In this document: positions 4,811 through 46,648 of the stretch, in pieces
How positions within the stretch are numbered: the stretch's first letter is position 1
Layout: the number at the start of each line of letters is the position of its first letter
Assembly: GCF_900107485.1 (NCBI RefSeq)
Contig: NZ_FNQE01000030.1
Location: 1 to 46,648 of the forward strand
From: Proteiniborus ethanoligenes
GTDB taxonomy: Bacteria; Bacillota; Clostridia; Tissierellales; Proteiniboraceae
Direction: 5' to 3'
Length of the DNA: 46,648 nucleotides
The notes under the pieces: model-generated
What the model was told of the DNA's origin: nothing
The model's input: the letters and a program-made list of their open reading frames with translations, nothing else
The model's database searches: none
Translations under genes and position numbers: made by a program

Positions 4811-4831
4811 TACAAATATCCCCCTTTATTA

Positions 4832-5599: not shown

Positions 5600-5611
5600 A
5601 ATATTTACCTC

Positions 5612-6370
5612 CTATAATTTAAATGCTATTTTTGAGTATATAGAAAATATTACTGCTAATATTGTTATTACCATAAGTGCATAATCCTTTCCATCAAAGC
5701 CTATTTCCATGTAATTAGTTCTTTCTTTGTCATAGCCAAAGCCTTTTGATTCTAGGGCCATAGAAAACACATTTGTACCTCTTATAACAGAAATAAGTGT
5801 TGGTATCAATAATGGTACATATTTTTTAGCTTTTTGAAATAACGTTCCTGAATCTAAGTCTAATCCTCTGGACTTTTGTGCTTGAGTAATTGTATAACTA
5901 GTACCTACTATCATAGGAACAAGTCTTATTGCAGTTGAAAATGCAAATGCTCCTCTGTAAGGCACCTTTAATTTGACAAGACCTAGGGATATTTCTTCGA
6001 TTTTTGTAGAGCTTAGGAAAATCATCCCAGAAATAATCATTATGTCAAACTTTAAACCTATCATGATTCCATGTAAGAGTCCTTCTAGAGTTATAGGTCC
6101 CAGTAGCTTTGTTTCCCCGCCCTTGGTCAAGGACCATATAATTATTGACATTAAAGCAATCATGAATAATATTACCCTTATACGCTTTAAATTTGATAAC
6201 ACTCTTCCTGATTGTCCATATAAGAAAATAACTATTCCTAGTCCAATTAGTATAGGAAGAGAATTAAATAAAAGTGCAATTGCAAAACTACCAAACATGA
6301 CTAGCAGCTTAGTTCTAGGATCTAATCTATGAAGGAAAGTATTCTTGTCTATATATAAGAACATATCCAT
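5612..6370 (-). CDS. ecfT: ECF transporter T component (EcfT)
   Basis: A 252-residue membrane protein. The start carries the EcfT hallmark HRLDPRTKLL, followed by several hydrophobic segments. Two cytoplasmic coupling motifs are visible, AQKSRGLD and ALESKGFGY, which bind the ATPases. It begins one base after the stop of the ATPase gene, so translation is coupled. It forms the transmembrane scaffold for the S component at 4016. Confidence 0.88.
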   Translation of the reverse strand: MDMFLYIDKNTFLHRLDPRTKLLVMFGSFAIALLFNSLPILIGLGIVIFLYGQSGRVLSNLKRIRVILFMIALMSIIIWSLTKGGETKLLGPITLEGLLHGIMIGLKFDIMIISGMIFLSSTKIEEISLGLVKLKVPYRGAFAFSTAIRLVPMIVGTSYTITQAQKSRGLDLDSGTLFQKAKKYVPLLIPTLISVIRGTNVFSMALESKGFGYDKERTNYMEIGFDGKDYALMVITILAVIFSIYSKIAFKL

Positions 6371-6371
6371 G

Positions 6372-8093
6372 TTACTTCGCCCCCTTAGTGCATCTAATCA
6401 TTTCATCTATTGACAGTATTGTATTTCCTAGCTTATTGCTTAAGCTTACTATATGAGGTGTTTTTAAATAAGATTTTAAAAGCTCCTCTTCATTTTTAAA
6501 TACCTCTCTAGTAGTGCCATACATCTTTATTTCTCCATCATTTACTACTGCTACCCTATGAGCATATTCAGAAACTACCCACATTGTATGGGTTATCATT
6601 ATTATGGTATGCCCACTTTCATTAAGCTTTTTTATTAGCTCCATCATCTGTCTTTGCTCTTTATAGTCAAGTCCAGTAGTAGGCTCATCTAGGATTATAA
6701 CTTTTGGTCTGGCAGACAATATAGAAGCTACTGCTATTCTTTGTCTTCCGCCCTTAGTAAGTGAAAATGGGTCTTCCTCCTCATATCCTTCCATATCAAC
6801 TGCCTTTAGTGCTTCTTTAACTCTTTCATCTATTTCTTCCTTTGAGCAGCCTCTAATCTTAGGGCTAAAAGCTACTTCTTCATAAACTGTATCAGCAAAT
6901 ATCTGATGGTCAGGGTTTTGAAAAGCATATCCTACCTCTTTACCTATCTCAAATATTGTTGAATTCTTAGTGTCTTTTCCATTTACTATTACATTCCCAT
7001 TTGTAGGTAATAGTAATCCATTAAAATGCTTTACTAAAGTAGTCTTACCGCTTCCATTGTGCCCAAGTACAGCTAAAAATTCTCCTTCTCTTACCTTTAG
7101 ACTAGCTCCTTTTAAGGCAGTTTTCCCGTTAGGATAAGTGTGCTCTAGATCCTTTACTTCTATTATTACATTTCCATATTTACTATCTCTTTTTTCTTCT
7201 CCACAAAGAATTTCTGCATATTTTTCTTCATCTATTTCAAGTCCTAGACTCTTGAATTTTTCTAGGCCTTCATCAGGTGTTAAGGGTAGTTCTTCTTTTT
7301 TTATTAAGGACATTTGAGAAAAGTATTTTGGAATTTGAAGGGACATTATTCCTATACGATCTGTTAATTCTATTTCTTTTAGAACCTCTTTAGGGCATCC
7401 ATCCTTTAAAATATGTCCGTCTTCCATAATTATAAGCCTATCAGCGTTTAATGCCTCTTCTGTTTCATGCTCTATTATTATAAGGGTAAGATCTTTGTCT
7501 TCATGTAACTCTTTAGCTATTGTAAATATACCTAGCTTGCCCACTGGGTCCAGATCTGTAGTTGGCTCGTCCATGCAGATAATACTTGGTTGAGAAGCGA
7601 GAACAGAGCCTATAGCTAATCTTTGCTTCTGGCCTCCAGATAATGTTGAAGGCTGCCTAGCTTCAAAGCCTTGAAGCTTAACTGTCTTTAATATTTTTTC
7701 TATTCTTCTTTTTATTTCTTCTCTATCAACCTTAAAATTTTCAGGTCCAAATGCAATCTCCAGCATTGTATTTGTAGAAAACAACTGTGATTCAAAATCT
7801 TGAAAAACTAATCCTATTTCCCTCGCCATTTTGCTCACACTATTTTCCCTTGCATTAGCACCATTTATTAAAACTTCACCGCTGTATTGTCCTCTAATGA
7901 AATGAGGTACTAGTCCATTTAAGCAATTTGCCAAAGTAGATTTACCTGCACCGCTAGGCCCCATTATTACTACAAATTGACCTTTTTCAATATCTAAGTT
8001 TATATCTTCAATAGCATTTTTATCTTTTTGGTCTTTATACTTAAAAGTCAGGTTTTTTATGGATATAGCCTTTACTTCCTCTTTATTACCCAT
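6372..8093 (-). CDS. ECF transporter ATPase, two fused ATP-binding domains
   Basis: A 573-residue protein with two ABC ATPase domains in one chain (about 8-255 and 305-555). Domain 1 has GPSGAGKST, LSGGQKQRLAIGS and CMDEPTTDLDP. Domain 2 has GHNGSGKTT, a divergent signature LTKGGRQRIAVAS in place of LSGGQ, and ILDEPTTGLDY. The fusion replaces separate EcfA1/EcfA2. It powers the EcfT and S proteins encoded just downstream. A dedicated ATPase gene in the operon means this is a stand-alone (group I) ECF transporter. RBS AAGGAGG. Confidence 0.9.
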   Translation of the reverse strand: MGNKEEVKAISIKNLTFKYKDQKDKNAIEDINLDIEKGQFVVIMGPSGAGKSTLANCLNGLVPHFIRGQYSGEVLINGANARENSVSKMAREIGLVFQDFESQLFSTNTMLEIAFGPENFKVDREEIKRRIEKILKTVKLQGFEARQPSTLSGGQKQRLAIGSVLASQPSIICMDEPTTDLDPVGKLGIFTIAKELHEDKDLTLIIIEHETEEALNADRLIIMEDGHILKDGCPKEVLKEIELTDRIGIMSLQIPKYFSQMSLIKKEELPLTPDEGLEKFKSLGLEIDEEKYAEILCGEEKRDSKYGNVIIEVKDLEHTYPNGKTALKGASLKVREGEFLAVLGHNGSGKTTLVKHFNGLLLPTNGNVIVNGKDTKNSTIFEIGKEVGYAFQNPDHQIFADTVYEEVAFSPKIRGCSKEEIDERVKEALKAVDMEGYEEEDPFSLTKGGRQRIAVASILSARPKVIILDEPTTGLDYKEQRQMMELIKKLNESGHTIIMITHTMWVVSEYAHRVAVVNDGEIKMYGTTREVFKNEEELLKSYLKTPHIVSLSNKLGNTILSIDEMIRCTKGAK

Positions 8094-33941: not shown

Positions 33942-35327
33942 TTATTGTTTTAAAGTATGGATTGGACTGCCTAATGCCAGATGTGCTGCTTCCATAACTG
34001 TTTCTGAAAGCGTTGGATGAGGGTGAATTCCTCTAGCTAAATCTTCTAGAGTTCCTTCTAGCTCCATGGTCATGACCCCTTCTGCAATCATGTCTGTAGC
34101 AGTGGATGCCATCATATGAACTCCTAAAATCTCACCGTATTCTTTACTTGCTACAATCTTTACAAATCCATCTCTTTCCCCTTCTGCTAATGCCTTACCA
34201 TTCGCACCTAATGGGAAATTGCCTACTACTATATCATAGCCTTTTTCCCTTGCTTCATCTTCTGTTAAGCCTACAGTTGCAATTTCAGGGAAGCTGTATA
34301 TACATGATGGTATCTTATCATAACTCATTTTACTGTCCTTGCCCATTATGTTTTCAACGGCAATTATACCCTCTGCTGAGGCTACATGAGCCAGTAAATC
34401 TTTCCCGTTTACATCTCCTATTGCATATACTCCCTCAATGTTAGTTCTCAACCTTTCATCTGTAATGATACCTTTTCTATCAGTTTCAAGGTTTAAGCTT
34501 TCTAAGCCTTTTAAATTAGGAGTTCTTCCTAGACTGACTAGTATCTTATCTCCTTCAAAGATTTTTTCCTCTCCATTTACTTCTACTACTATTTTATTTC
34601 CTTCAAATTTTTTGTGCTTCACTCCATAAACTATCTTTACACCTTTTCTAGTTAATACCTTTGCCATTGCTTCACTTAGGTCTTTATCGATTCCTGACAA
34701 TATCCTTGGAGAACGTTGAAGTATGGTTACTTTACTGCCAAGTGCATTATATAATGTTGCAAACTCGATGCTTATAGTACCTGCACCTACTACTATTAAA
34801 TGCTCTGGAATTTCCTTTGGATCAAGAACTTCTGTGCTAGTAACAGCATAACCTTGCTCGAAAGATTCTTTTATACCTTCTACCTCTGGTATCATAGGAG
34901 ATGAGCCTGTAGCAATGATTAGGTTTTTAATATTTAGCACTTCATCATTTACTTTTACAGTGTTTTTGTCTACAACTTCACCAAAGCCTTTGTAAATGTC
35001 TACACCATTTTTTTCTAATAATAGCTTTACTCCACTTGTCAATCTCTTAACTGCTTGATTCTTTCTCTTAACCATTCCATCAACATTAACAGATACTAAA
35101 CTTTTGTCCCCAATATTGATGCCATACTTATCTGCATTCATTATGCTTTCGTATACCTTTGCACTCTTTAATAATGTTTTAGTAGGTATACAGCCTACAT
35201 TGAGGCACACTCCTCCTAATTCACCTGCTTCAACAATTGCAGTCTTAGCTCCCATTTGCGCAGCCTTAATGGCAGCTACATAGCCTCCTGGACCTGCTCC
35301 AAGAATTAAAATGTCATACTGTTTCAT
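33942..35327 (-). CDS. lpdA: Dihydrolipoamide dehydrogenase (E3)
   Basis: A 461-residue flavoprotein disulfide reductase with GAGPGGYVAAIKAAQ (FAD), GGVCLNVGCIPTK (redox disulfide), VVGAGTISIEFA (NAD), AIGDVNG, and the C-terminal active base HPHPTLSE. It re-oxidises dihydrolipoamide on E2 with NAD+. Last gene of the PDH operon, 13 bases after E2. RBS AAAGGAGG. Confidence 0.96.
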   Translation of the reverse strand: MKQYDILILGAGPGGYVAAIKAAQMGAKTAIVEAGELGGVCLNVGCIPTKTLLKSAKVYESIMNADKYGINIGDKSLVSVNVDGMVKRKNQAVKRLTSGVKLLLEKNGVDIYKGFGEVVDKNTVKVNDEVLNIKNLIIATGSSPMIPEVEGIKESFEQGYAVTSTEVLDPKEIPEHLIVVGAGTISIEFATLYNALGSKVTILQRSPRILSGIDKDLSEAMAKVLTRKGVKIVYGVKHKKFEGNKIVVEVNGEEKIFEGDKILVSLGRTPNLKGLESLNLETDRKGIITDERLRTNIEGVYAIGDVNGKDLLAHVASAEGIIAVENIMGKDSKMSYDKIPSCIYSFPEIATVGLTEDEAREKGYDIVVGNFPLGANGKALAEGERDGFVKIVASKEYGEILGVHMMASTATDMIAEGVMTMELEGTLEDLARGIHPHPTLSETVMEAAHLALGSPIHTLKQ

Positions 35328-35340
35328 CCTTTGACCTCCT

Positions 35341-36636
35341 TTAGCTTAGTAACAGCAACATAGGGTTACTCAAAAGCTCCTTTAGCCTCATTAAAAATCT
35401 TCCTGCGTCTCCACCATCTATGATTCTGTGGTCAATGCTCAGAGATACAGGCATCATATGCCTAATAACTATTTCATCATTTAATACCACTGGTTTTTTA
35501 TCAATCTTTCCTATTCCTAGTATTGCCACTTCAGGATACCTTATTACTGGCACTCCATAGGTTGAACCCAAAGCACCATAGTTTGTTATTGTAAAGGTTC
35601 CACCATATAGTTCCTCTATACCTATAGTTCTATTTCTAGTTTTTTCAATTGTTTCATCTAAATCCTTTGCTAATTCTAATATTCCCTTACTATCAACGTT
35701 TTTAATAACTGGAACCATTAACCCTTCTTGAGTATCTGTTGCTATACCAATATTATAATATCTTTTGTAAATAATTTCATCCTTTATATCATCAAAACTG
35801 GAATTAAATACAGGGAATTCCTTTAAGGCTATTGTTAAGGCCTTTATAATAAACGGTATATAGGTTAGATTTATACCTTTATCTATGGCTATTTCTTTTT
35901 GTTCTGTTCTTATTTTTACTAGCTCAGTTACATCAAATTCATCCATTGTAGTAGCATGTGGAATTATGGTCTTGGATAAAACCATGTTTTCTGCAACAGT
36001 TTTTCTAAGCCTTGATATAGGAACTCTTTCTACTTCGCCATATACCTTTATTTCCTCACGTATGGCTGGTTGCTTTATGAAGGTATCTCCTACTGGTTGG
36101 ATAAATACATTGCTTTCTTTTATATCTTTGTTTTTCTCATTATAGGATTGTATATCTTCCTTCATCACTCTTCCAGCAGGTCCTGTACCCTTTACTTGAT
36201 TTATGTCCACTCCTAAATCCTTAGCTAGCTTTCTGGCTACAGGAGTTGCAAGCACCTTGACTTTTATGTCTTTTTCTTCATATTTCCCCTCATCACTGCT
36301 TTCTATAATCTCAGAAGATACTTCTATTTCACCTACTACACCTGCACCTTTTTCATCCTCACTTACAGGCTCTTGCTCTTTTTTAGTTTCTGAGAGTTCC
36401 CTTCCGTCATCTATAATTACTACTGTATTCCCTACGTGGATTGTATCTCCTACCTCAGCCATAAGCTTATTTATTTTGCCCCCTACTGGTGATGGTATCT
36501 CTGCATTTACCTTGTCTGTTTCTACAAGAAATAGTGAATCACCTTCTTTTATATTATCTCCTTCTTTTACAAACCATTTAAGAAGTACTCCCTCGTGAAT
36601 ACCTTCTCCAATATCTGCAAATTTAAATTCAAACAT
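35341..36636 (-). CDS. pdhC: Pyruvate dehydrogenase E2, dihydrolipoyl acetyltransferase
   Basis: A 431-residue E2 chain. There is one lipoyl domain (1-78) with lipoyl Lys42 (ETDKVNAE), an acidic linker, a peripheral subunit-binding domain (about 130-165; LATPVARKLAKDLG...GTGPAGRVMKEDI), a second linker, and the catalytic domain (about 205-431) with HRIIDGG and the active His. It transfers the acyl group to CoA. A branched-chain or acetoin complex is possible, but the E1 subunits look pyruvate-type. Confidence 0.92.
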   Translation of the reverse strand: MFEFKFADIGEGIHEGVLLKWFVKEGDNIKEGDSLFLVETDKVNAEIPSPVGGKINKLMAEVGDTIHVGNTVVIIDDGRELSETKKEQEPVSEDEKGAGVVGEIEVSSEIIESSDEGKYEEKDIKVKVLATPVARKLAKDLGVDINQVKGTGPAGRVMKEDIQSYNEKNKDIKESNVFIQPVGDTFIKQPAIREEIKVYGEVERVPISRLRKTVAENMVLSKTIIPHATTMDEFDVTELVKIRTEQKEIAIDKGINLTYIPFIIKALTIALKEFPVFNSSFDDIKDEIIYKRYYNIGIATDTQEGLMVPVIKNVDSKGILELAKDLDETIEKTRNRTIGIEELYGGTFTITNYGALGSTYGVPVIRYPEVAILGIGKIDKKPVVLNDEIVIRHMMPVSLSIDHRIIDGGDAGRFLMRLKELLSNPMLLLLS

Positions 36637-36647
36637 TTAATCACCTC

Positions 36648-37625
36648 CTAGAACTTTACTACTTCTCTGATTTTATAAGCTATTTTCTTTGGTTCAATAA
36701 TAAAATGATGCTCTCCCTTTGGTAGTGGAACAGTTATATCAAATCCAGTAAGTCGTGTAGGTGGAGCCTCCAGATATAAAAACGCTCCTTCATTTACTAT
36801 GGATATAAGCTCTGCACCTGCCCCAAAGGATTTTACTGCTTCATGGACAACTAGAAACCTTCCTGTTTTCTTTACTGATTCAATTATTGTTTCCTTGTCT
36901 ATTGGAGATATAGTTCTCAAATCTATTAATTCAACGTTGATTCCTTCTTTTTCTACTTCCTCTATTGCCTTTTGAGCTTCTCTAACTAAGGCACCCCATG
37001 TTACTACAGTTATATCCTTTCCACTTTTAACTATCTTAGCCTTTCCTATTGGAACTGTATAATCTTCCTCAGGAACCTCTTGCTTAAAGGCCCTATATAT
37101 TCTCTTTGGCTCCATAAATATTACTGGGTCTGGATCTCTTATTGCTGATAGTAATAAGCCTTTTGTGTCATAGGGTGTAGAAGGGATTACAACCTTTAGT
37201 CCTGGAATATGTGAGAATATTGCTTCTAAGCTTTCCGAATGATGCTCTAAGGCTCTAATTCCACCACCATAGGGCATTCTTATTACCATAGGAAGATTGT
37301 ATTTGCCCCTACTTCTATTCCTCATTCTAGCAGCATGTGCAAGTATTTGATTGACTGCTGGAAGTACAAATCCTGAAAATTGAATTTCAACAACAGGTTT
37401 AAGTCCGTTTATGGCCATTCCAATAGCTGACCCAACTATTGCTGCCTCTGAAAGTGGTGTGTCAAAGCATCTATCCTTACCGTATTTTTGCTGTAGCCCA
37501 ACTGTAGCTCTAAAAACTCCACCTTCATGACCTACGTCTTCTCCATAAACTACAACAGACTTATCTCTTTCCATTTCTTTATCTAATGCATGTGTCAATG
37601 CACCTATATTATTTAGTAATGCCAT
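36648..37625 (-). CDS. pdhB: Pyruvate dehydrogenase E1 beta
   Basis: A 325-residue E1 beta subunit: YGEDVGHEGGVFRAT, FDTPLSEAAIVGSAIGMA, EIQFSGFVLPAVNQI, MPYGGGIRALEHHSES, and LIDLRTISPIDKETI. It completes the ThDP active site with E1 alpha. The last base of the alpha stop overlaps its start region (37625 shared), so translation is coupled. Confidence 0.94.
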   Translation of the reverse strand: MALLNNIGALTHALDKEMERDKSVVVYGEDVGHEGGVFRATVGLQQKYGKDRCFDTPLSEAAIVGSAIGMAINGLKPVVEIQFSGFVLPAVNQILAHAARMRNRSRGKYNLPMVIRMPYGGGIRALEHHSESLEAIFSHIPGLKVVIPSTPYDTKGLLLSAIRDPDPVIFMEPKRIYRAFKQEVPEEDYTVPIGKAKIVKSGKDITVVTWGALVREAQKAIEEVEKEGINVELIDLRTISPIDKETIIESVKKTGRFLVVHEAVKSFGAGAELISIVNEGAFLYLEAPPTRLTGFDITVPLPKGEHHFIIEPKKIAYKIREVVKF

Positions 37626-38710
37626 TATTGTCCCTCCTCTTCAAGATACTTCTTATATTCTTCATATTGCTCTATTAAGTTTGGAGTCATTTCATCATAA
37701 GTGTATTTAAATACATCCTCTAATGAAACTAATCCTGATTCTTCAACTTTCTTAAAGGTTTCCCCTACATAGCTTTCATATTCCTCATAAAGTGCTTTAT
37801 CCTTTTCTTCACTCCATAAGCCTTTATCTATGAGATACTTCTTAAATCTTTCAATTGGATCTTTCTTTTCCCATTCTTTAACCTCACTATCATCACGATA
37901 TATTGTTGGATCATCTGAAGTTGTGTGAGGCCCTAGTCTATATGTTACTGCCTCAATAATAGTAGGTCCTTCACCTCTTCTAGCTCTATCTACTGCTTCC
38001 TTTGTTGCTGCATACATTGCTAGAACATCATTACCATCCACCTGAATACCAGGTATTCCATAGGCTATTGCCTTTTGTGCCAATGTTTTTGACTTTGTCT
38101 GCATACTCCTAGGCACTGATATAGCCCATTGGTTGTTTTGAATTAGGAATATTACAGGTGCATGAAATACAGCAGCAAAATTTACTGCCTCGTGGAACTC
38201 TCCCTGTGATGTCCCCCCATCTCCAACATATGCAATAGCCACATCATTTTCTCCTTTTATCTTTGAAGCCATAGCTATGCCAGTCGCATGGTTTAGCTGT
38301 GATGCTATAGGAACGGACACAGGAAGCATTTTTACATCTTCAGAAAACTTGCTGCCTATTTCATTTCCATACCAGTACAGGTATACCTGCTCTAGAGATA
38401 CTCCCTTGTAAAGCCATGCCCCTAGCTCCCTAAAGGCTGGAACTAACCAATCACTTTTTTCTATAGCTGCTATGGAGCCTACTTGAGCAGCCTCTTGACC
38501 TCTATTAGGCGCATATGTGAGCATCCTACCCTGACGTTGGTATTGCAATGCTTTTATGTCTGCCACCTTTGCCAGAACCATAGTGTGGTACATCTTCAAT
38601 AGATTATCATTCTCAATAAAAGGCTCTAAATTAGCATCTACTATGTTTCCTTCATAATCTAGTATATTAAGCATCTCTTCTTTTAATGGATTAAACTTTT
38701 CTGTTAACAT
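37625..38710 (-). CDS. pdhA: Pyruvate dehydrogenase E1 alpha
   Basis: A 361-residue E1 alpha with the ThDP motif GDGGTSQGEFHEAVNFA and closing NN, RQGRMLTYAPNRGQEAAQVGS, PVSVPIASQLNHATG, and a phosphorylation-loop-like RLGPHTTSDDPT. The N-terminal FNPLKEEMLNILDYEGNIVD resembles Gram-positive pyruvate-type E1 alpha. It decarboxylates pyruvate. The ATG at 38710 is chosen for AGGAGG 9 bases upstream; an ATG at 38749 lies before that RBS. Confidence 0.93.
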   Translation of the reverse strand: MLTEKFNPLKEEMLNILDYEGNIVDANLEPFIENDNLLKMYHTMVLAKVADIKALQYQRQGRMLTYAPNRGQEAAQVGSIAAIEKSDWLVPAFRELGAWLYKGVSLEQVYLYWYGNEIGSKFSEDVKMLPVSVPIASQLNHATGIAMASKIKGENDVAIAYVGDGGTSQGEFHEAVNFAAVFHAPVIFLIQNNQWAISVPRSMQTKSKTLAQKAIAYGIPGIQVDGNDVLAMYAATKEAVDRARRGEGPTIIEAVTYRLGPHTTSDDPTIYRDDSEVKEWEKKDPIERFKKYLIDKGLWSEEKDKALYEEYESYVGETFKKVEESGLVSLEDVFKYTYDEMTPNLIEQYEEYKKYLEEEGQ

Positions 38711-38829
38711 TAAATCAATCCTCCTATTCTTTGCTTTAATAGTTTTCATATATGGAAAACTAATCCTCTAAAATTAAATTAGTTTTGTTCTCTTACTTTA
38801 ATATTACCCTTTTAAATGGAAATAAAAAC

Positions 38830-38955: not shown

Positions 38956-39648
38956 TTAATCTTCCCTCAGTCTATACTTGTTCTGAGGTCTCCCAACTTT
39001 TCCATATTCAAGCTCAAGGACTATTTTTTGTTCTTTTTCTAGAAAATCTAAATATCTTCTTGCTGTAATTCTTGAGACTCCAATATCCTTAGCTACCTGC
39101 TGAGCGGTAAAGGTTTTCCCCTTCATTTCTTCTATATACTCTAATACTTTTTCATAGGTATATTGACTAAATCCTTTAACTTCTCCGATATCCTCTAGGA
39201 GATTAGTAGCGGCTTTCTTTTCATTTAGAAGGTATTTATCAATTATTTCTTGGTTTATACAACCATTAGTTTCAAGTCCCTTTTTTCTGTTTCTATATTG
39301 ATTCATTGCTTCTTTGAACCTTTCGAATACAAAAGGCTTAATAATATAATCTACTGCTCCATATCTAAAGGCCTCTTCCACAGATTCCATATTTCTATCA
39401 GCAGTTATTAATATTACATCAATTTTCATATCTTTTTTCCGTATCCATTTTAAAAGCTCTAAACCCTTCCCCTGTGGGAAAAATATGTCTAATAAAATGA
39501 GATCAGGACATTCTTCTAAAATCAGTTCCTTAGCTCTTTCTATTGAACTTGCACTATTTAGTAGCTTATAGCCTTCTACTCTTTTTAAAAATTTTTCGTT
39601 TATTTCCCTAACCATAGGATCATCTTCAACTATTAAAACCTTTATCAA
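38956..39648 (-). CDS. Response regulator, CitB/DcuR type
   Basis: About 230 residues. The receiver domain (1-120) has the acidic pair in VEDD, the phosphate acceptor Asp in LILLDIFFP, and the conserved Lys in YIIKPF. The C-terminal part (about 175-230) has a helix-turn-helix (FTAQQVAKDIGVSRITARRYLDFLE). This is the CitB/DcuR/MalR group, which answers extracellular carboxylate or related signals. It starts at TTG (39648), one base after the kinase stop, with AGGAGG 7 bases upstream. Confidence 0.88.
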   Translation of the reverse strand: MIKVLIVEDDPMVREINEKFLKRVEGYKLLNSASSIERAKELILEECPDLILLDIFFPQGKGLELLKWIRKKDMKIDVILITADRNMESVEEAFRYGAVDYIIKPFVFERFKEAMNQYRNRKKGLETNGCINQEIIDKYLLNEKKAATNLLEDIGEVKGFSQYTYEKVLEYIEEMKGKTFTAQQVAKDIGVSRITARRYLDFLEKEQKIVLELEYGKVGRPQNKYRLRED

Positions 39649-39649
39649 A

Positions 39650-41224
39650 TTAATCCCTCCTATTTGCTGGAATAAATACATTCCAGCTTGTCCCTTTATC
39701 AGAATTAAGCTCTATTATCCCATCTGCTTCATCTATGATTTTTTTAACTATGTTTAATCCATACCCTCTATTCCCTACTTTAGTAGTAAATCCTTTTTTA
39801 AAAATCTTATCTCTCATCTCTTTTTTTATTCCCAATCCATTGTCCTTAACTATTATTCTTAATCCATCTGTGTCCGAATTGATCTTAATATAAAGCTTCC
39901 CATTTTCTATTTTAACTAACTCATCTATAGCATTTTCTATTAAGTTCCCAACTATAGAACATACCTCGTCAACAGTAACTGTATCTGGAATAACTGTTAA
40001 GTTTGAACTAGGATCTATTATCATTTCTATTTTAGATTCAGATGCTTTATTATACTTTGAAAGCAATATCCCAGCTAAATGAGCATCCTTTATCTTATAT
40101 GTTAATGTTCCTAATATCTCATGTCTTCTGTCAGATAAATCAGATATATAATCAATAGCCTTGTTATATTCTTCTAGTTGTATAAGTCCTGATATAGTAT
40201 GAAGCTTATTCAGGAATTCATGATTTTGAGCTCTAAGGTCATTAGTAAGCTTTTTTATACCTGTAAGCTCTTCTGCCATGCGTTTAACCTCAGATAAATC
40301 TTGAAAGCTAGATACTACTCCTATTATTTCGTTTCTATGATCTTTCATTATAGTATGACTACAAAGAAGTACTTTCCTAAGGTTTATTTTAACCTCTTCA
40401 TTATATATAGATTCACCATTTTCTAACACTTCACTTAACTGTTTTGTATATGCTAGGTTTAAATCGTATATATTCTTCCCTACATCTTCGTCTTTCAAGC
40501 CAAGAATATCTTTTGCATTCTTGTTTAATAATATAATTTTTCCTTTTTCATCAATTGCCATAATCCCATTTTTTAAGCTATGGATTATATTATCTCTTTG
40601 CCCAAGTAAAAGTGCGATTTCTTTCGGCTCTAAACCAAAAATAGTCTTTTTAATATTGTAAGAAAGAACTGCTGCGCAAATAACACCTACAATAAGTCCT
40701 ACTAAAAGAGTCTTCCAAAAATTAAATATATAGGGTCCTATTTCTTCGTATACCGTGTTGTTTAAGAGTCCCACCAATACTGCTCCAACTTGTTCTCCTT
40801 CATGGTAAATTGGTGCAAAAGCTCTTATAGCTGATATTAGTACATTTCTGTCTGCCGAAACATAAGCCTCTCCTGTTTTTAATACCCTTTCTTCCCCGCC
40901 ACTAATATATTTTTTCCCTAAATCATATTCTATAGGATATGAGTACTTTATACCCTCCATATCCATAACAATAATATATTGAAATCTAGTCTCATGTCTA
41001 AAGCTTTCAATCTTGTCTTGTATAACTCTATAATCCTTTGTTGTAGCCAAAGTCTCTTTTATAATATCCATAGAAGCTATAGTTACTGCCAAGTCCATAG
41101 CATTATTTTCCATTTGATTCTCTATGGTGTTTTCAACTTGCTTAAAGGTTAATACGCCAACACCACCTACTACTACAATAAGCATCAAGGTCATAAATAT
41201 AGTAATCTTATACTGTAGTTTCAT
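39650..41224 (-). CDS. Sensor histidine kinase, CitA/DcuS type
   Basis: A kinase of about 524 residues. TM1 (about 4-27), an outside sensor domain of about 145 residues (Cache-like; FQYIIVMDMEGIKYSYP...GEAYVSADRNVLIS), TM2 (about 165-188), a PAS domain (about 205-310), the SpoOB-like H-box with LRAQNHEFLNKLHTISG, and an ATPase with LIENAIDEL, DNGLGIK and GYGLNIVKK. The ATG at 41224 follows AAGGGG; an ATG at 41260 adds 12 residues without an RBS. It sits 86 bases downstream of the FMN-binding lipoprotein gene. Confidence 0.88.
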   Translation of the reverse strand: MKLQYKITIFMTLMLIVVVGGVGVLTFKQVENTIENQMENNAMDLAVTIASMDIIKETLATTKDYRVIQDKIESFRHETRFQYIIVMDMEGIKYSYPIEYDLGKKYISGGEERVLKTGEAYVSADRNVLISAIRAFAPIYHEGEQVGAVLVGLLNNTVYEEIGPYIFNFWKTLLVGLIVGVICAAVLSYNIKKTIFGLEPKEIALLLGQRDNIIHSLKNGIMAIDEKGKIILLNKNAKDILGLKDEDVGKNIYDLNLAYTKQLSEVLENGESIYNEEVKINLRKVLLCSHTIMKDHRNEIIGVVSSFQDLSEVKRMAEELTGIKKLTNDLRAQNHEFLNKLHTISGLIQLEEYNKAIDYISDLSDRRHEILGTLTYKIKDAHLAGILLSKYNKASESKIEMIIDPSSNLTVIPDTVTVDEVCSIVGNLIENAIDELVKIENGKLYIKINSDTDGLRIIVKDNGLGIKKEMRDKIFKKGFTTKVGNRGYGLNIVKKIIDEADGIIELNSDKGTSWNVFIPANRRD

Positions 41225-41310
41225 ACTAATACCCCTTTTGTTATAATCCGTAATAAACAAAACTTCTTCCGGAGAAGTCTTGGCTATTATTCATGGACGA
41301 ATGCAATGTA

Positions 41311-41667
41311 TTATTTATTTGGTGCTATAAGTGCCTTATTAAGCCCATCATTAATAGCTTCAATAAGCCCAACACTTGTATAGGAAGCACCAGCAACAAC
41401 ATCAACGTTTGCATTATTAGTTTTTATTACTTTTTTAGGTATTTTATCGTAAACAATAACTGCCAGTTCTGGCATTTCATATTCTTCAATTACTAGGATA
41501 TCTATTATACTGTATTCATCTGTAGTAACTATTACTCTAATAGGACCATGATGGCCTTCTCCAACGCCAACATATTCTCCTGGATTATATAGCTGTTTTT
41601 TAGGTCCACAGCCTAATAATCCTGTACATAATATTATTATAATTAAAATGAAAATAGTCTTTCTCAT
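41311..41667 (-). CDS. FMN-binding lipoprotein
   Basis: A 118-residue exported protein with a lipobox LLGC (Cys20) and one FMN-binding domain. DVVAGAS (Asp89 to Ser95) matches the ApbE target pattern Dxx(S/T)GA(T/S), with Ala in place of the first S/T; Ser95 would carry the phosphodiester-linked FMN. HHGPIRVIVTTDEYSIIDI is typical of the fold. It would be an extracytosolic electron carrier. A matching ApbE is encoded at 45220. It is first in an operon with the sensor kinase and regulator. Confidence 0.85.
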   Translation of the reverse strand: MRKTIFILIIIILCTGLLGCGPKKQLYNPGEYVGVGEGHHGPIRVIVTTDEYSIIDILVIEEYEMPELAVIVYDKIPKKVIKTNNANVDVVAGASYTSVGLIEAINDGLNKALIAPNK

Positions 41668-41753
41668 TTCTATCCTCTCCTTATGCCTAAGTAGAGATAA
41701 TATACTAGATATAAATACATGATTTTGGTCTTAATGTAAATATTGTTTATCCC

Positions 41754-41782
41754 ATTATACCATTTAGCAGGTCTTTTGTCAC
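41754..41782 (-). promoter_or_regulatory. Promoter of the FMN-lipoprotein/two-component operon
   Basis: Minus strand GTGACA (41777-41782), 17 bases, TATAAT (41754-41759). Leader about 80 bases. Confidence 0.6.
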
Positions 41783-41845
41783 ATGCTATGTCTTATTAGG
41801 CATTTTAAAAATATAATCCTTGGTTCAGCTCTTTGAGCAAATAAA

Positions 41846-41883
41846 AACCTATAGAATGTACTAAGTATTCCATCCTATAGGTT
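41846..41883 (-). terminator. Terminator of the ndh/polyprenyl synthase genes
   Basis: AACCTATAG (41846-41854) with CTATAGGTT (41875-41883) and an inner GAAT/ATTC pairing; the minus strand continues TTTATTTG. It follows the polyprenyl synthase stop by 38 bases. Confidence 0.8.
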
Positions 41884-41921
41884 GATTTAAAACAGCTCAT
41901 TAAAAAATTTTAATTTGGGAT

Positions 41922-42893
41922 CTAATAATCTCTTTTTAATAGATTTATAACCGTACTTCTGATTATATCCTTTGATTCACAATTTGGAAGCTTTTCAATC
42001 CTTGCAATTGCTTTTTCAGTATATCTATCTGCTACCTCTTTAGCACGACTAGTTCCATTATATAAATTGACTAATTCTATTATTTCCTTTGTTTCTTCAT
42101 CAGATAAATCTTTATTATCAATTAATTTTAATAACCTGCCATCCTTATCTTTTTCTAATGCTAATATTAAAGGCAAAGTATAATACCCTCTTTTTAAATC
42201 TCTTAATGCAGATTTACCTAGCTGTTCAGTATTACCATCATAATCAAGTATATCGTCTATTATTTGAAAAGCCATTCCTGCATTATATCCAATCTTTCCT
42301 AAGGATTTGGAAATCAGTTCATTGCACTTCGCTTCATTAGCTCCTGTATAAAAGCTTAATGCAAATAACGCAGCAGTCTTTCCTGATATTATTCTTATAT
42401 AATTTCTTAAGCTTGCGTGCTTAGCATATCTTAGATTATATTGAGTTATTTCTCCCATGCAAATCTTAGTTAAAGCCTTAGATATATTCTTTAAATCCTC
42501 CATATTATAATCATAATTCGCTAGCATATTGATACATTGGCAAAAGAGAAAGTCTCCAATATATACTGCATATTCCTTCCCGTATTTATACTGTACAGTC
42601 TCACTACCTCTTCTAAGCCTAGCATCATCAATAATATCATCATGAATTAAAGTCGCCATATGAAGCATTTCGATTACAGCAGCAATGTTATATATTTTTT
42701 CAGGATCAGGCTCTCCAAATTTACTTGATAGAAGAAGAAATGCGGGTCTAAGCATCTTTCCGCCACCATCAACCATTGGCAGTATTGCCTCTTCTAAATA
42801 CTTCTCTCTTGAACTAATATTCTTCTTTATAAGGTCTTTAACTTGATTTAATTCATGAAATAATACTGGATAGTCCTTCCAAAATCTATTCAT
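41922..42893 (-). CDS. Polyprenyl (heptaprenyl-type) diphosphate synthase
   Basis: A 323-residue trans-prenyltransferase. The first aspartate-rich motif is IHDDIIDDARLRRG, the second is QIIDDILDY, and GGGKMLRPAFLL is the expected N-terminal motif. It chains isopentenyl units for a quinone side chain, probably (demethyl)menaquinone. It follows the type II NADH dehydrogenase, which reduces quinone. RBS AAAGGTGAG. Confidence 0.9.
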   Translation of the reverse strand: MNRFWKDYPVLFHELNQVKDLIKKNISSREKYLEEAILPMVDGGGKMLRPAFLLLSSKFGEPDPEKIYNIAAVIEMLHMATLIHDDIIDDARLRRGSETVQYKYGKEYAVYIGDFLFCQCINMLANYDYNMEDLKNISKALTKICMGEITQYNLRYAKHASLRNYIRIISGKTAALFALSFYTGANEAKCNELISKSLGKIGYNAGMAFQIIDDILDYDGNTEQLGKSALRDLKRGYYTLPLILALEKDKDGRLLKLIDNKDLSDEETKEIIELVNLYNGTSRAKEVADRYTEKAIARIEKLPNCESKDIIRSTVINLLKRDY

Positions 42894-42903
42894 TTTCTCA
42901 CCT

Positions 42904-42936
42904 TTACCCGTCTAGTTTATAAATGATATTATGCAT
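42904..42936 (-). CDS. Possible 10-codon leader ORF
   Basis: ATG (42936) 8 bases after AAAGGAG opens a frame MHNIIYKLDG that stops at TAA (42904), overlapping the RBS of the polyprenyl synthase. It could couple translation of the next gene. It may be chance. Confidence 0.25.
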   Translation of the reverse strand: MHNIIYKLDG

Positions 42937-42959
42937 ATATATTCTCCTTTATAATGAAA

Positions 42960-42989
42960 TGTCCTTCTAAAGAAATCTTTAAAAGGACA
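42960..42989 (-). terminator. Hairpin after ndh
   Basis: A stem of 13 bases with one mismatch (arms 42960-42972 and 42977-42989), loop AAAT. The minus strand follows with TTTCATT, a weak T-run. It may cause partial termination or protect the ndh message. Confidence 0.5.
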
Positions 42990-43005
42990 CCCATTTTAGA
43001 AGTTA

Positions 43006-44874
43006 TTAATCAATATATAGATATGTCTTCTTTGCAAAACCTGTATTCTTCCACCATTTTTTAAGAACAGGCAGCACATAATAATCTAATCCAAGTGTGC
43101 TTCCAGAACCGCCTATTAAGGCAATACCTGCTACAAAGTACCATAGCATTTCCGTTGGTGCCATTCCAGAAGACCATATCATTAGTCCCATTGCTAATGT
43201 TATTAAAGAAGCTAAAGCTGTGAATAAACCTGCTAATAATAGTAATCCTACTATTATCTCACCTATTACCATTCCTGCTTGGAAGACTTCAGCTAATTTT
43301 GTATAGCCTCCATCAGGTGTATAGAAAAATGCATTCATTGACCATTCAACAATATTTTCAATAAATCCAGGAACCGGTAAAGCTTCTCCCCATTGTGACA
43401 CTACTTCTGCAGCCTCTCCTGCTGCTTGTGAAGCTGCTGCTACTGCATCTGATGCACCACTTGTAGCAGCAAGTGGGGATGCTGGTATCAAGAATATCTT
43501 TGAAGGATCCTCTAAAATACTTGGTAATTTCTCTAATCCTTGTACTAGCCACTTATATCCTACAAACAATCTAAGTGGGAATAGCCAGAAATTTGGAGAG
43601 CGTTTAGCTAAATGTCCGCCTATAAAGCTTCTATTATCTTTTACATTGAAGAATTCATACATAATATAAGACCAGCATTTATTGAATCCAGCTACTTGGA
43701 AGAAGTACAGTATATTAATAAAATGTTTAGCAAGCATTGCAAAGAAGCTTGGCAATCCAAAGAATTTACCCGGTAAACCTACATGTGCAACACCATATTT
43801 GCCTCCTATACAAACCATAGCTCCATGGAATGAAGGCTTATATGATTTCTTTTCTCCACCTTTAATATCTGCGTAAATATTGTTTGCAACCAACGGAGCA
43901 GAATGTTCTGCATTCTCAACCATTTGAGGAACAGGTCTTTCTTCTCCCTCTGGTATATAAAATATATTATCTCCTACTACATAAACATTATCATAATCTA
44001 CTGATTGAAGTTTATCATTTGTAACTATTCTTTTTCTACCTTTTTGTTCAATATCTAAATTATCTAGCAGGTCAGCACCTTCCACACCTGCTGCCCATAC
44101 AATGGTTTGAGATTCTATTGTGCCTTTTTCTCCCATTATTACAGCATCTGGTTTAACTTCTGTAATCCCAGCATTTGTAATTATTTCAACCCCAAGCTTT
44201 CTTAGTCTTTTTTCCGCTTTATTAATTAGCTTATCTGGAAATATTGGAAGTATCTTAGGTAATGCATCTACTACATAAAGCTTTACCTCTTCCTTATCTA
44301 CATAGAACTCTTTACATAGTCTATCCTTCCATTCTCCAAGCTCACCTATCATCTCTACTCCAGTAAATCCAGCACCAACTACTACAAATGAGAGCATCTT
44401 TCTTCTTTTCTCTGGGTCATTTTCTTTTACAGCTTCCCTAAACATATGAAGAATATGTTCTTTAAGCTCTACTGCATCTTCATAGGACCAAAGCTTCTTA
44501 GTATATTCCTCTGCACCAGGCACGCCAAAATAAGTTGGTTTACAGCCAGTACCTAATACTAAATAATCGTATTTGTAATTACTTTTTTCTGATTTAAGAG
44601 TATTATTTTTAAAGTCAATGTCTGTTATTTCGTCAAGTACAACGTTTACCTTTCTCTTAGCAAAAACCTTTGAAAACTCAATTCTAATAGAATCCTCTGG
44701 AACTCTATCAGCAGCAACCTCATGTAATTCTGTCAACATTGTATGATAAGGCTTTTTATCAATCAATGTAATCTCTACGCTGTCATCTTTTTTAAACAAT
44801 TTACCAAGCTTTTTTGCTGCTATGATACCACCATAGCCTCCGCCTAGTACTATAATTCGTTTAGTATCAGCCAT
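43006..44874 (-). CDS. ndh: Type II NADH dehydrogenase with C-terminal membrane domain
   Basis: A 622-residue protein. Residues 1-about 400 are an NDH-2 with IIVLGGGYGGIIAAKKL (FAD), VVVGAGFTGVEM (NADH) and VYVVGDNI. Residues about 425-610 are an added membrane domain with four hydrophobic segments, DoxX-like (NFWLFPLRLFVGYKWLVQGLEK; GMVIGEIIVGLLLLAGL). Ordinary NDH-2 is about 400 residues. It passes electrons from NADH to quinone. Listeria's electron-export Ndh2 is also over 600 residues with an extra membrane part. The polyprenyl synthase is directly downstream. Confidence 0.9.
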   Translation of the reverse strand: MADTKRIIVLGGGYGGIIAAKKLGKLFKKDDSVEITLIDKKPYHTMLTELHEVAADRVPEDSIRIEFSKVFAKRKVNVVLDEITDIDFKNNTLKSEKSNYKYDYLVLGTGCKPTYFGVPGAEEYTKKLWSYEDAVELKEHILHMFREAVKENDPEKRRKMLSFVVVGAGFTGVEMIGELGEWKDRLCKEFYVDKEEVKLYVVDALPKILPIFPDKLINKAEKRLRKLGVEIITNAGITEVKPDAVIMGEKGTIESQTIVWAAGVEGADLLDNLDIEQKGRKRIVTNDKLQSVDYDNVYVVGDNIFYIPEGEERPVPQMVENAEHSAPLVANNIYADIKGGEKKSYKPSFHGAMVCIGGKYGVAHVGLPGKFFGLPSFFAMLAKHFINILYFFQVAGFNKCWSYIMYEFFNVKDNRSFIGGHLAKRSPNFWLFPLRLFVGYKWLVQGLEKLPSILEDPSKIFLIPASPLAATSGASDAVAAASQAAGEAAEVVSQWGEALPVPGFIENIVEWSMNAFFYTPDGGYTKLAEVFQAGMVIGEIIVGLLLLAGLFTALASLITLAMGLMIWSSGMAPTEMLWYFVAGIALIGGSGSTLGLDYYVLPVLKKWWKNTGFAKKTYLYID

Positions 44875-44997
44875 TGATTTACCTCCCTTTATTTATAGCA
44901 TTCAAAGAGCAAGCCTTTGAATTAAATATTTATTTATGCATAACACATGGATGATGTTACCTTCTATTTCTAAAGTTTGATAATACACAAACTATCC

Positions 44998-45033
44998 TAG
45001 TTAAAATATTATCATATACTTGTCAAATGTCTA
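44998..45033 (-). promoter_or_regulatory. Promoter of ndh
   Basis: Two overlapping options on the minus strand: TTGACA (45021-45026), 17 bases, TAACTA (44998-45003); or TAGACA (45028-45033), 16 bases, TAATAT (45006-45011). Confidence 0.5.
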
Positions 45034-45067
45034 TATTTGCTAAGTTTTTGGTCATTAGGGATACTTT

Positions 45068-45095
45068 TTGTTAATTTTGTTCATAGGATTATAAT
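45068..45095 (+). promoter_or_regulatory. Promoter of apbE
   Basis: TTGTTA (45068-45073), 16 bases, TATAAT (45090-45095). The leader would be about 120 bases. Confidence 0.5.
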
Positions 45096-45219
45096 ATTAA
45101 TTTTACTTTAAAGGTGCTATTATTAGTGCTATAATGATTTTGTCACAATATTGTATATTTTAGGTTTTAATTATTTGTTTACGATTGCGAACATTTATAG
45201 ATTAATTTGGAGGATAGCT

Positions 45220-46284
45220 ATGAAAAAAAATAATAAAACAATAATATTTGTGTTACTTGTCACAATAGTTGCCCTTGGAGCTTTTATTTTTGTTAATAAA
45301 AATAAAGGCACGAATAATTCAAGTGCTAATTTAATAACTGAAAAATCTGGATTCATGCTGGGAACATTAGTTAAAATTAAACTCTTTGAACCACAGCCTG
45401 AAGAATTGTTTGAAGAAGCATTTAACATTATTGAAGATATTGAAAACAAAATGAGCATAAATATAAAAGAAAGTGAAGTTATGGAGATTAATAAAAATGC
45501 GGGTAAGGCTTATGTTAAGGTGTCTCCTGAAACTTATTTTGTTATTAAAAAAGGAAAATATTATTCAGAAATCTCAAATGGAAAATTTGATATAAGTATA
45601 GGACCTTTGGTTAAGCTTTGGGGCATAGGTCAGGAGGGTGCAACTGTACCACCACAAAAGGAAATAGATGAAGCTATAAGCATGATAGGCTACAAGGATA
45701 TTTTACTTAACGAATCTGAACAGAGTGTTATGCTTGCAAATGAAGGTATGATAATTGATTTAGGTGCAATAGCAAAAGGATATACTGCTGATGTGCTTGC
45801 AGAATTTCTAAGGTCAAAGAATATTAACAGTGGAATAATAGACTTAGGTGGTAATGTATTAGCCTTAGGAGCAAAGGATGGAAAGTACCCTTGGAGCATT
45901 GGTGTTCAAAATCCCTTTGATCAAAGAAATAAGTCTATAGGAGTATTAAAGGTCATAGATAAAACCATAGTTGCATCTGGAGTATATGAAAGATATTTTT
46001 TTGAAAGCGGCAAAAGATACCATCATATTTTAGATCCATTCACAGGCTATCCTGTAGAAAATGAGTTGATGAGTGTTACCATAGTTGCAGATACGTCTAT
46101 TGATGCTGATGGATTATCGACTACAGTATTTGCTTTAGGAATTGAGAATGGAATGAAGCTAATTGAAGGCCTAAATGGAATTGATGCAATTTTTGTAGAC
46201 TTGGATAAAAATGTTTATGTGACAAGTGGTCTTAAAGATACTTTTACGATTGATAATGACGAATTTAAGGAAAAAAGCTTCTAA
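45220..46284 (+). CDS. apbE: FAD:protein FMN transferase (ApbE)
   Basis: A 354-residue ApbE with an N-terminal membrane helix (about 7-26) without a lipobox Cys, so it is anchored facing outside. Motifs: MLGTLVKIKLF, DISIGPLVKLWGIG, IDLGAIAKGYTAD, GIIDLGGNV, and DADGLSTTVFALG. It moves FMN from FAD onto Ser/Thr of exported flavoproteins using Mg2+. The FMN-lipoprotein at 41311 is an obvious target. The ATG at 45220 has GGAGG 7 bases upstream; an in-frame ATG at 45151 lacks an RBS. Confidence 0.93.
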   Translation: MKKNNKTIIFVLLVTIVALGAFIFVNKNKGTNNSSANLITEKSGFMLGTLVKIKLFEPQPEELFEEAFNIIEDIENKMSINIKESEVMEINKNAGKAYVKVSPETYFVIKKGKYYSEISNGKFDISIGPLVKLWGIGQEGATVPPQKEIDEAISMIGYKDILLNESEQSVMLANEGMIIDLGAIAKGYTADVLAEFLRSKNINSGIIDLGGNVLALGAKDGKYPWSIGVQNPFDQRNKSIGVLKVIDKTIVASGVYERYFFESGKRYHHILDPFTGYPVENELMSVTIVADTSIDADGLSTTVFALGIENGMKLIEGLNGIDAIFVDLDKNVYVTSGLKDTFTIDNDEFKEKSF

Positions 46285-46331: not shown

Positions 46332-46648
46332 TGATACCTCCAAAGTAGACAGTCTAATTAATTAAAATTAGATTATCTACTTGGAGGTATTTTTTATGGG
46401 GAAGAAATCACAGTATAGTATAGAAACAAAAACTCAAGCATGCAAAGACTATGAGAAAGGTAAAGGTAGTTTTCAAAGCATAGCCGAGGAAATTGGAGTT
46501 AATTGGACAACATTAAGAGAATGGTACTTTAAATATAGAGAACATGGGGTCAATGCATTTGATACTACAAAGAGAAACAATTCTTACACTAAGGAGTTTA
46601 AACTAGAAGTTATAGAAGAATATATAACTAACAAAGGATCTTATATAG
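46332..46648 (+). mobile_element. IS3-type insertion sequence, left end
   Basis: The element seems to begin near TGATACCTCC (46332). A long imperfect inverted repeat follows: ATACCTCCAA (46334-46343) to TTGGAGGTAT (46381-46390), the arms reaching inward through GTAGA and TCTAATT with a one-base bulge. The second arm contains the GGAGG of the first transposase gene. The right end is outside the window, so the ends and target duplication cannot be checked. Confidence 0.65.
46396..46648 (+). CDS. IS3-type transposase OrfA, N-terminal part
   Basis: ATG at 46396, 8 bases after GGAGG, opens a frame of 84 codons that is still open at the right edge. The protein has two helix-turn-helix units: SFQSIAEEIGVNWTTLREWY and, after NNSYTKEFKLEVIEEY, the start of a second, as in IS3-family (IS150-like) OrfA proteins with two HTH domains. 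It binds the element ends. Completeness is unknown. Confidence 0.78.
   Translation, partial: MGKKSQYSIETKTQACKDYEKGKGSFQSIAEEIGVNWTTLREWYFKYREHGVNAFDTTKRNNSYTKEFKLEVIEEYITNKGSYI

Follow-up and report, generated by a model that had tools for sequence, protein, structure and literature searches.

The stretch of DNA analysed here (the window, 46,648 nucleotides) comes from Proteiniborus ethanoligenes and carries near its right end a group of genes that an earlier note, made from the letters alone, had taken for a flavin-based extracellular electron transfer (FLEET) locus, in which electrons pass from NADH through a type II NADH dehydrogenase (NDH-2) and a quinone to a small surface flavoprotein of the PplA class known from Listeria. 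The reading that we favour, and that on the sequence comparisons stands at about an even chance, is that of a split FLEET-type module for electron disposal, in which the lipoprotein predicted to carry flavin mononucleotide (FMN) forms a sensor unit with a kinase and a regulator, rather than a PplA-type outlet, and in which the quinone precursor 1,4-dihydroxy-2-naphthoic acid (DHNA) is scavenged. The earlier note had read the kind of system and its split state rightly, the lipoprotein and the EetA/EetB link wrongly, and the quinone supply incompletely. Between 44874 and 38956 the minus strand carries, in the direction of reading, ndh2, a gene for a polyprenyl diphosphate synthase, that for the FMN_bind lipoprotein, and those for a DcuS-like kinase and its DcuR-like partner regulator, while apbE reads the opposite way from 45217. 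The four genes named in that note are all present, each with a Pfam match (42.4-307.1 bits); the two-component pair (38956-41260), which it had left out, continues the locus to the left. This whole order, with apbE diverging from ndh2, is kept in both available congeners, a search of the family having returned the window's own genome and these two. The same gene classes also recur around NDH-2 across 80 relatives, so that the grouping is more than chance; these are the best 80 of at least 573 NDH-2 relatives. By record title, 42 of the 80 belong to Paenibacillaceae and kin, among which Brevibacillus is counted, and were treated separately from the 38 others.

The link to FLEET begins with NDH-2 itself (43006..44874, minus strand, 622 amino acids; PF07992, 150.2 bits), which is 38% identical to Listeria Ndh2 across 624 amino acids, i.e. 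over the whole length. The earlier note had called for an alignment of the tail with that of Listeria Ndh2, and the two are related: the last 187 amino acids alone still match it (34% over 100 amino acids, E 2e-11). The C-terminal membrane domain that it had described proved to be a weak DoxX/DoxD-type domain, whose match lies below the Pfam cut-off in the window protein and barely over it in the Listeria tail (DoxX, 23.9 vs 23.6 bits); among 22 aligned NDH-2 relatives at E<=0.01, DoxD was matched in 14 and DoxX in 14. The structure model predicts tail helices at residues 431-455, 526-548, 552-568 and 576-587, with a predicted local distance difference test score (pLDDT) below 50 for 468-496, and among the Foldseek matches listed for this model all cover the soluble part and none is a relative of the tail. 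A working definition of extracellular electron transfer (EET) clusters, given in a passage of PMC8238504, asks for an NADH dehydrogenase (K03885) with a transmembrane helix inside a flavinylation gene cluster. The module fits this definition as judged by Pfam and the structure model, which place an NDH-2 with a predicted membrane tail beside apbE and an FMN_bind gene.

The remaining FLEET components are also present in this genome, partly in the window and partly far from it. ApbE, the FAD:protein FMN transferase (FAD, flavin adenine dinucleotide; 45217..46284, plus strand; PF02424, 307.1 bits; the listed open reading frame (ORF) begins earlier, with a TTG at 45151), is 42% identical to Listeria FmnB over 353 amino acids (E 5e-97), and it keeps the four FmnB active-site residues (Ser, Arg, His, Asp) given in part of PMC12052999, as read from an alignment with structure 7esa. 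The polyprenyl diphosphate synthase (41922..42893, minus strand; PF00348, 222.7 bits) is 43% identical to Listeria DmkB (E 2e-92), so that the assignment of both proteins to the FmnB and DmkB classes holds. The earlier note had set a lack of EetA/EetB or another quinone-to-flavoprotein link, together with an unrelated NDH-2 tail, as grounds for rejecting the FLEET reading. A genome search for EetA/EetB and MenA-like genes found all of them: on contig C44 the one PF07456 match, an EetB-type gene, adjoins a NusG_II gene of EetA type (PF07009), both over cut-off and matching their Listeria counterparts (EetA, E 1e-15; EetB, E 1e-32), and contig C17 carries one UbiA-family gene that scores 380 bits against the DHNA polyprenyltransferase model (cut-off 289), i.e. 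the MenA/DmkA type, and matches an Enterococcus MenA at E 6e-69. Six proteins (NDH-2, ApbE, DmkB, MenA, EetA and EetB) thus have counterparts among the FLEET proteins of Listeria or Enterococcus, none with an E value weaker than 1e-15. Where the earlier note had offered "a reduced or split version", split is the correct word, as the EetA, EetB and DmkA homologues lie outside the window. Together with an NDH-2 that is homologous including its tail, these homologues elsewhere in the genome support a FLEET-type but split module.

The small lipoprotein (41311..41667, minus strand; PF04205, 42.4 bits against a cut-off of 22; lipobox LLGC by eye) is single-domain, as the earlier note had stated, and like Listeria PplA it is an FMN_bind protein by Pfam. 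That note equated it with PplA as a surface flavoprotein that receives the electrons. In the corresponding alternative, which we consider unlikely though still deserving of weight, it is the functional PplA of the genus and the surface electron outlet, and the kinase merely regulates the locus. In its favour, the lipoprotein is the only exported FMN_bind protein found in the genome besides Rnf- and Nqr-like subunits (PF04205 has only these three places), and because PF04205 detects Listeria PplA well (48.2 bits), it would probably have picked up another such PplA in this genome. A divergent PplA could have escaped it, since the model missed two of eight clostridial or bacillar PplA-like proteins. 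FMN_bind was found by Pfam at E<=0.001 in six of these eight, with L109 and L085 missed and the L053 piece under the Pfam cut-off. The fold fits a covalent-FMN protein as well: the structure model (pLDDT 90.8) matches the covalent-FMN domains 8p2b (E 2.5e-6) and 8p2a, the closest solved relatives in sequence and fold, which according to a passage of PMC10339131 are repeats in proteins with four and three flavins, whereas the lipoprotein is one domain on a lipid anchor.

Membership of the PplA class, PplA being a two-domain FMN lipoprotein, nevertheless fails on several counts. BLASTP of the lipoprotein against Listeria PplA found nothing outside the signal region (E 0.13), and a separate search gave no PplA match at E<1. 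In a tree of 40 domain rows, which takes true PplA domains and omits RnfG and NqrC, 14 small lipoproteins including that of the window form a group of their own (support 100/100), to which none of the PplA and PplA-like rows belongs. It should be noted that an earlier tree that included RnfG and NqrC had long branches and grouped L119 with the small lipoproteins (90/84), and that L119 falls with PplA in the second. PplA orthology was rejected on BLASTP and the tree. Moreover, both kinds of protein may occur together: L058 has the small lipoprotein and a Pfam-supported PplA-like protein, L085 has both as well (its PplA-like protein resting on a home-made profile and the tree, unconfirmed by Pfam), and L053 has the small lipoprotein and a PplA-like ORF split over two frames.

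A further point against equating the lipoprotein with PplA is its attachment to a sensor kinase. In each of the 13 related loci where a close kinase occurs (both congeners and 11 loci from the set of 80 relatives), and in the window, the lipoprotein gene lies directly upstream of the kinase gene on the same strand, with a spacing that ranges from a 4-base overlap to 69 bases in the 13 loci and is 86 bases in the window, counted from the likely ATG. The unit stays intact even at a distance of five genes from the synthase gene (L051, L092, L101) or of seven from ndh2 (L106). Within the window it is parted from the synthase gene by a terminator-like hairpin with a U run (41846..41883, minus strand; z -3.06, 1 of 200 shuffles as good), which is missing from the output of a consensus scan that admits loops of up to 8. 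The kinase (39650..41224, minus strand, from a likely ATG; the ORF as listed starts with a TTG at 41260) has sCache_3_2, PAS, SPOB_a and HATPase domains and scores 428.3 bits against the DcuS/MalK model, below the cut-off of 520; the regulator (38956..39681, minus strand) combines Response_reg with a DpiA-like helix-turn-helix domain and scores 183.3 bits against the DcuR model, below the cut-off of 262.

The pair shares domain order and outer-domain homology with DcuS/DcuR and CitA-type systems, the outer domain of the kinase being DcuS-like (3by8, E 1e-12), and differs from them in its ligand pocket and in the flavoprotein gene attached to it. Of the DcuS pocket residues R107, H110 and R147 (named in a part of PMC12772337), the first is K in ten and Q in four of 14 sequences including that of the window, the second is Y in all 14, and the third is retained as R in all 14. 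The window kinase has K, Y and R, which departs from a DcuS-type C4-dicarboxylate pocket, and a plain dicarboxylate sensor was rejected on the loss of R107 and H110. As a control, 291 genomes were searched for the kinase outer domain, which gave 19 loci in 18 genomes. An FMN_bind neighbour within 1.5 kb was present in only three of the 19 (the window's own, G084 and G181, the last being the same genome as G293 with locus L050), exactly those with the changed pocket. The 11 next-best sensors all keep R..H; further down, L151 has K..H, L152 R..H and L153 neither, and the comparison leaves out L154 and L155 (not aligned; not a kinase). Because the link between kinase and lipoprotein is confined to one clade, this is an association and not repeated evolution.

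Taken most simply, the lipoprotein-kinase-regulator unit would sense the state of an acceptor or of the quinol, and it could instead be an outlet that its neighbour regulates. A fuller version is possible, and we put it forward tentatively: the three proteins would be a three-component redox sensor that governs an export chain run on scavenged naphthoate, with a covalent flavin held at the surface by a lipid anchor reading extracellular acceptors or quinol, and with the dicarboxylate pocket rebuilt. No paper on a flavoprotein-sensor kinase unit of this kind was found in the open-licence literature searched, where one listing was a paper on the Brucella ovis flavoproteome, and the term "histidine kinase" is absent from the main text of PMC8238504. 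The sensor-linked flavoprotein is the novel part; the electron-export machinery itself is known. If this unit is indeed a flavin-based sensor, it would provide a handle on how a Gram-positive cell notices an extracellular electron acceptor.

ApbE has one match in the genome, the sole copy found, and it has three possible FMN_bind clients there: RnfG (C35), an RnfG/NqrC-like subunit within an Nqr-like cluster (C42; under the cut-offs of both models) and the window lipoprotein. With three candidate clients for a single ApbE, the adjacency of apbE is weaker evidence for the lipoprotein than it appears. This leads to the second alternative, slightly more doubtful in our estimation, in which no electrons leave the cell: ApbE, EetA and EetB would work for the Rnf- and Nqr-like complexes, and NDH-2, using a trace quinone, would only balance redox or feed an internal acceptor. 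The distance of eetA and eetB from the locus and the failure to find head-group synthesis agree with this scenario. It sits less well with the retention of MenA and DmkB and with the position of apbE and ndh2 as divergent neighbours in all three genus members and several distant relatives, an arrangement shared with Listeria, where fmnB-pplA and ndh2 are likewise divergent (record NZ_LR134400.1). The earlier note had treated EetA/EetB as a link from quinone to flavoprotein, and here it was mistaken: in passages of PMC9973259, Listeria EetB is the substrate subunit of an FAD exporter, and a clean eetA deletion in Listeria left EET activity intact. On this analogy EetA/EetB feed ApbE and are not a step in the electron path. 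As a separate observation, the cluster on contig C42 (genome G000, locus L016, 8516-12445) is a second Rnf/Nqr-like cluster besides the Rnf on C35; it has B, C, D, E and an NqrF-like subunit (287.8 bits, cut-off 295) and directly follows acyl-CoA/thiolase genes; inspection of the 17 kb contig by eye revealed no NqrA.

The third question concerns the quinone head group. None of the matches to DHNA-synthesis enzymes in the genome passes: MenB-like matches reach 152.6 and 145.5 bits (cut-off 342.7) and a MenD-like match 74.5 (cut-off 244.2). Judged by eye from ORFs and gene neighbours, one of the former is an enoyl-CoA hydratase, encoded next to a 3-hydroxyacyl-CoA dehydrogenase, and the other a crotonase in an acyl-CoA gene cluster; the latter is an acetolactate synthase beside ilvD. 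MqnA/D are absent from the genome by profile search (the genome is given as 99.8% complete). As no enzyme for making DHNA was found, the head group is probably taken from outside. The same pattern extends to relatives. We surveyed 51 genomes, 45 from the 80 loci (seven Paenibacillaceae and kin, 38 others) and six more, which leaves 43 others after removal of the duplicate G181/G293 (L050), further duplicates being possible. MenD passes in only one of the 51 (Oceanirhabdus), and strong MqnA/D (best copy >215 bits) occurs in 7/7 Paenibacillaceae and kin and 0/43 others (best 43 bits), so that 42 of the 43 are without both; PF02621 matches of 27-43 bits, over cut-off in nine of the 43 and under it in two more, were not counted as MqnA/D. 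Single absences are weak, since some of the surveyed genomes are draft metagenome-assembled genomes. That DHNA synthesis is missing from nearly all the clostridia sampled that have such an NDH-2 would turn quinone cross-feeding into a requirement for electron export that can be tested well beyond lactic acid bacteria.

Another possibility, which we judge improbable, is synthesis of the head group along a route that has yet to be described. Many genomes without MenD and strong MqnA/D do retain MenA or MqnP-like prenyltransferases. Lactiplantibacillus plantarum, which also lacks the pathway, is a quinone auxotroph that uses exogenous DHNA, as described in part of PMC10746273, where the quinone uptake route in this species is said to be unidentified; furthermore, ATP-binding cassette (ABC) importer gene sets stand beside MqnP-, UbiD- and UbiX-like genes in several relatives, which favours scavenging. 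Among the 38 non-Paenibacillaceae loci, MenA occurs in the DNA around ndh2 in 21, an MqnP-like prenyltransferase, a UbiX-like protein and an ABC permease in eight each (not quite the same eight), and a UbiD-like decarboxylase and a substrate-binding protein in six each. The window genome, which shows one UbiA gene only, uses the MenA route. The recurring importer and MqnP/UbiD/UbiX-like genes are candidates for naphthoate import and finishing, and hence for quinone salvage. The fullest description comes from L051 (7335-8294 and 13073-17564), with MqnP-, UbiD- and UbiX-like genes, an ABC importer and an NMT1/SsuA-type binding protein; its UbiD passes the menaquinone-decarboxylase model (658.6 bits, cut-off 495.9), its prenyltransferase passes the general UbiA-like model and not the MqnP ones, and its binding protein passes Pfam NMT1 and not the SsuA model. 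Parts of the set also occur at L092, L101, L106, L108, L118, L125 and L127.

NDH-2 enzymes commonly feed quinol oxidases, and an aerobic respiratory role is largely refuted and very improbable here, the pairing with cytochrome bd having been rejected because no CydA was found in the genome by a profile search that did detect it in 10 of the 14 genomes used as controls; this search covered CydA and not the haem-copper oxidases.

Under the preferred reading of a split module with a sensor-linked lipoprotein, electrons from NADH would enter NDH-2 and pass to (demethyl)menaquinone, which would be built by MenA and DmkB on imported DHNA, and from there would leave the cell for an acceptor outside it, for example ferric iron or a quinone in solution. 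By homology, EetA/EetB would export FAD and ApbE would attach FMN covalently, and the redox state of the lipoprotein-bound flavin, or something that the flavoprotein handles, may be passed on to the outer domain of the kinase. The absence of PplA does not bar export: anode reduction in L. plantarum requires ndh2 and not pplA, and Lactococcus, without pplA, produces current, according to passages of PMC8837199. In the same passages ndh2 and pplA of L. plantarum are induced by DHNA and iron, a precedent for regulation by acceptors.

Several points weigh against this reading. Electron export, flavinylation and kinase activity are all predicted here. The lipoprotein carries D-V-V-A-G-A-S, with Ser as acceptor, where the flavinylation motif published in PMC12052999 (in the part cited) is D-x-x-[S/T]-G-A-[S/T]; the "ApbE target motif" claimed previously thus departs from the consensus at position 4, with Ala for Ser/Thr. 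All 15 aligned members keep the G, the A and a Ser/Thr acceptor, whereas some have Glu or Asn at position 1 and many have Ala at position 4, and the consensus is not strict, given that the first motif of Listeria PplA itself starts with Glu. Furthermore, 18 of the 38 non-Paenibacillaceae NDH-2 loci are without an FMN_bind-type protein at the threshold in the DNA available around ndh2, although some are cut by contig ends and some have proteins that score just below it. The kinase-lipoprotein link comes from a single clade and may go back to one ancestral event. Lastly, eetB is often linked to Rnf in clostridia (stated in a passage of PMC9973259), and ApbE and EetB could serve Rnf alone.

Among described systems, the FLEET locus of Listeria monocytogenes (L159, in record NZ_LR134400.1) shares the divergent flavin-transferase and ndh2 sides and homologous tailed NDH-2, FmnB, DmkB, EetA, EetB and MenA/DmkA. 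The genome studied here differs in having eetA, eetB and menA on contigs away from the locus, an FMN lipoprotein outside the PplA class and an attached pair of kinase and regulator, and in that no DHNA synthesis was found. L. plantarum resembles the window genome in having ndh2 and quinone-finishing genes without DHNA synthesis, and Lactococcus in the lack of pplA, whereas the FLEET locus of L. plantarum is complete and includes pplA, according to the passages cited above; an attached kinase-flavoprotein unit is unmentioned for either in those passages of PMC10746273 and PMC8837199. Full sets exist among the relatives, as in Fervidicella metallireducens (L053), described as iron-reducing (PMC4007986), in which apbE, ndh2, eetA, eetB, dmkB, lipoprotein, kinase, regulator and menA lie within 10 kb of each other. 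It has the lipoprotein-kinase-regulator unit and an NDH-2 about 71% identical, and differs in having eetA, eetB and menA in the one cluster and in its frame-split PplA-like ORF.

An NDH-2 match of at least 300 bits was present in 62 of 291 genomes of the class (counted by hand) and in none of 12 sampled genomes from other families of the same order, which indicates that the gene is patchy. Locus L020 (contig C48) entered none of the comparisons. An FMN_bind-type protein occurs in the available DNA around ndh2 at all but one of the 42 Paenibacillaceae-type loci, i.e. at 41, of which 36 have a two-domain form, and at 20 of the 38 others, of which nine do, as counted at E<1e-5 with a home-made profile that grew from 16 to 69 proteins over three rounds and may include wrong members. 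Three records are filed as plasmids and look chromosomal: NZ_LR134400.1, with ribosomal protein genes beside the FLEET locus, NZ_CP030101.1 (2.9 Mb) and NZ_CP154629.1 (2.6 Mb).

Several minor features of the window may be added. A hairpin between ndh2 and the synthase gene (42954..42995, minus strand) has z -4.48, with 0 of 200 shuffles as good. A promoter-like site before the lipoprotein gene (GTGACA-17-TATAAT, 11/12; 41754..41782, minus strand) came from the consensus scan and is a weak call, since the region has 48 sites of such quality against 39.8 (standard deviation 5.8) in shuffles. The contig ends 364 bases after apbE and cuts the right side of the locus; by eye, an ORF there (46381-46648, plus strand) seems to be the beginning of a transposase, truncated by the contig end, and both congeners have at this place a gene for a Cu_amine_oxidN1 and glucosaminidase protein instead. 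Next after the regulator, 33942-38749 (minus strand) carries by eye the genes of a 2-oxoacid (pyruvate-type) dehydrogenase complex, also found in both congeners. At 4016-8093 (minus strand) lies an energy-coupling factor (ECF) transporter set of a QueT-like S subunit, a CbiQ-type T subunit and, by eye, a double ATPase, adjoining a gene that by eye is methylthioadenosine phosphorylase-like. The CbiQ-family gene of this set, at 5612-6370 beside the QueT-like S subunit, is at most a candidate for FmnA, the ECF-T subunit of FLEET systems, in a search that covered the window.

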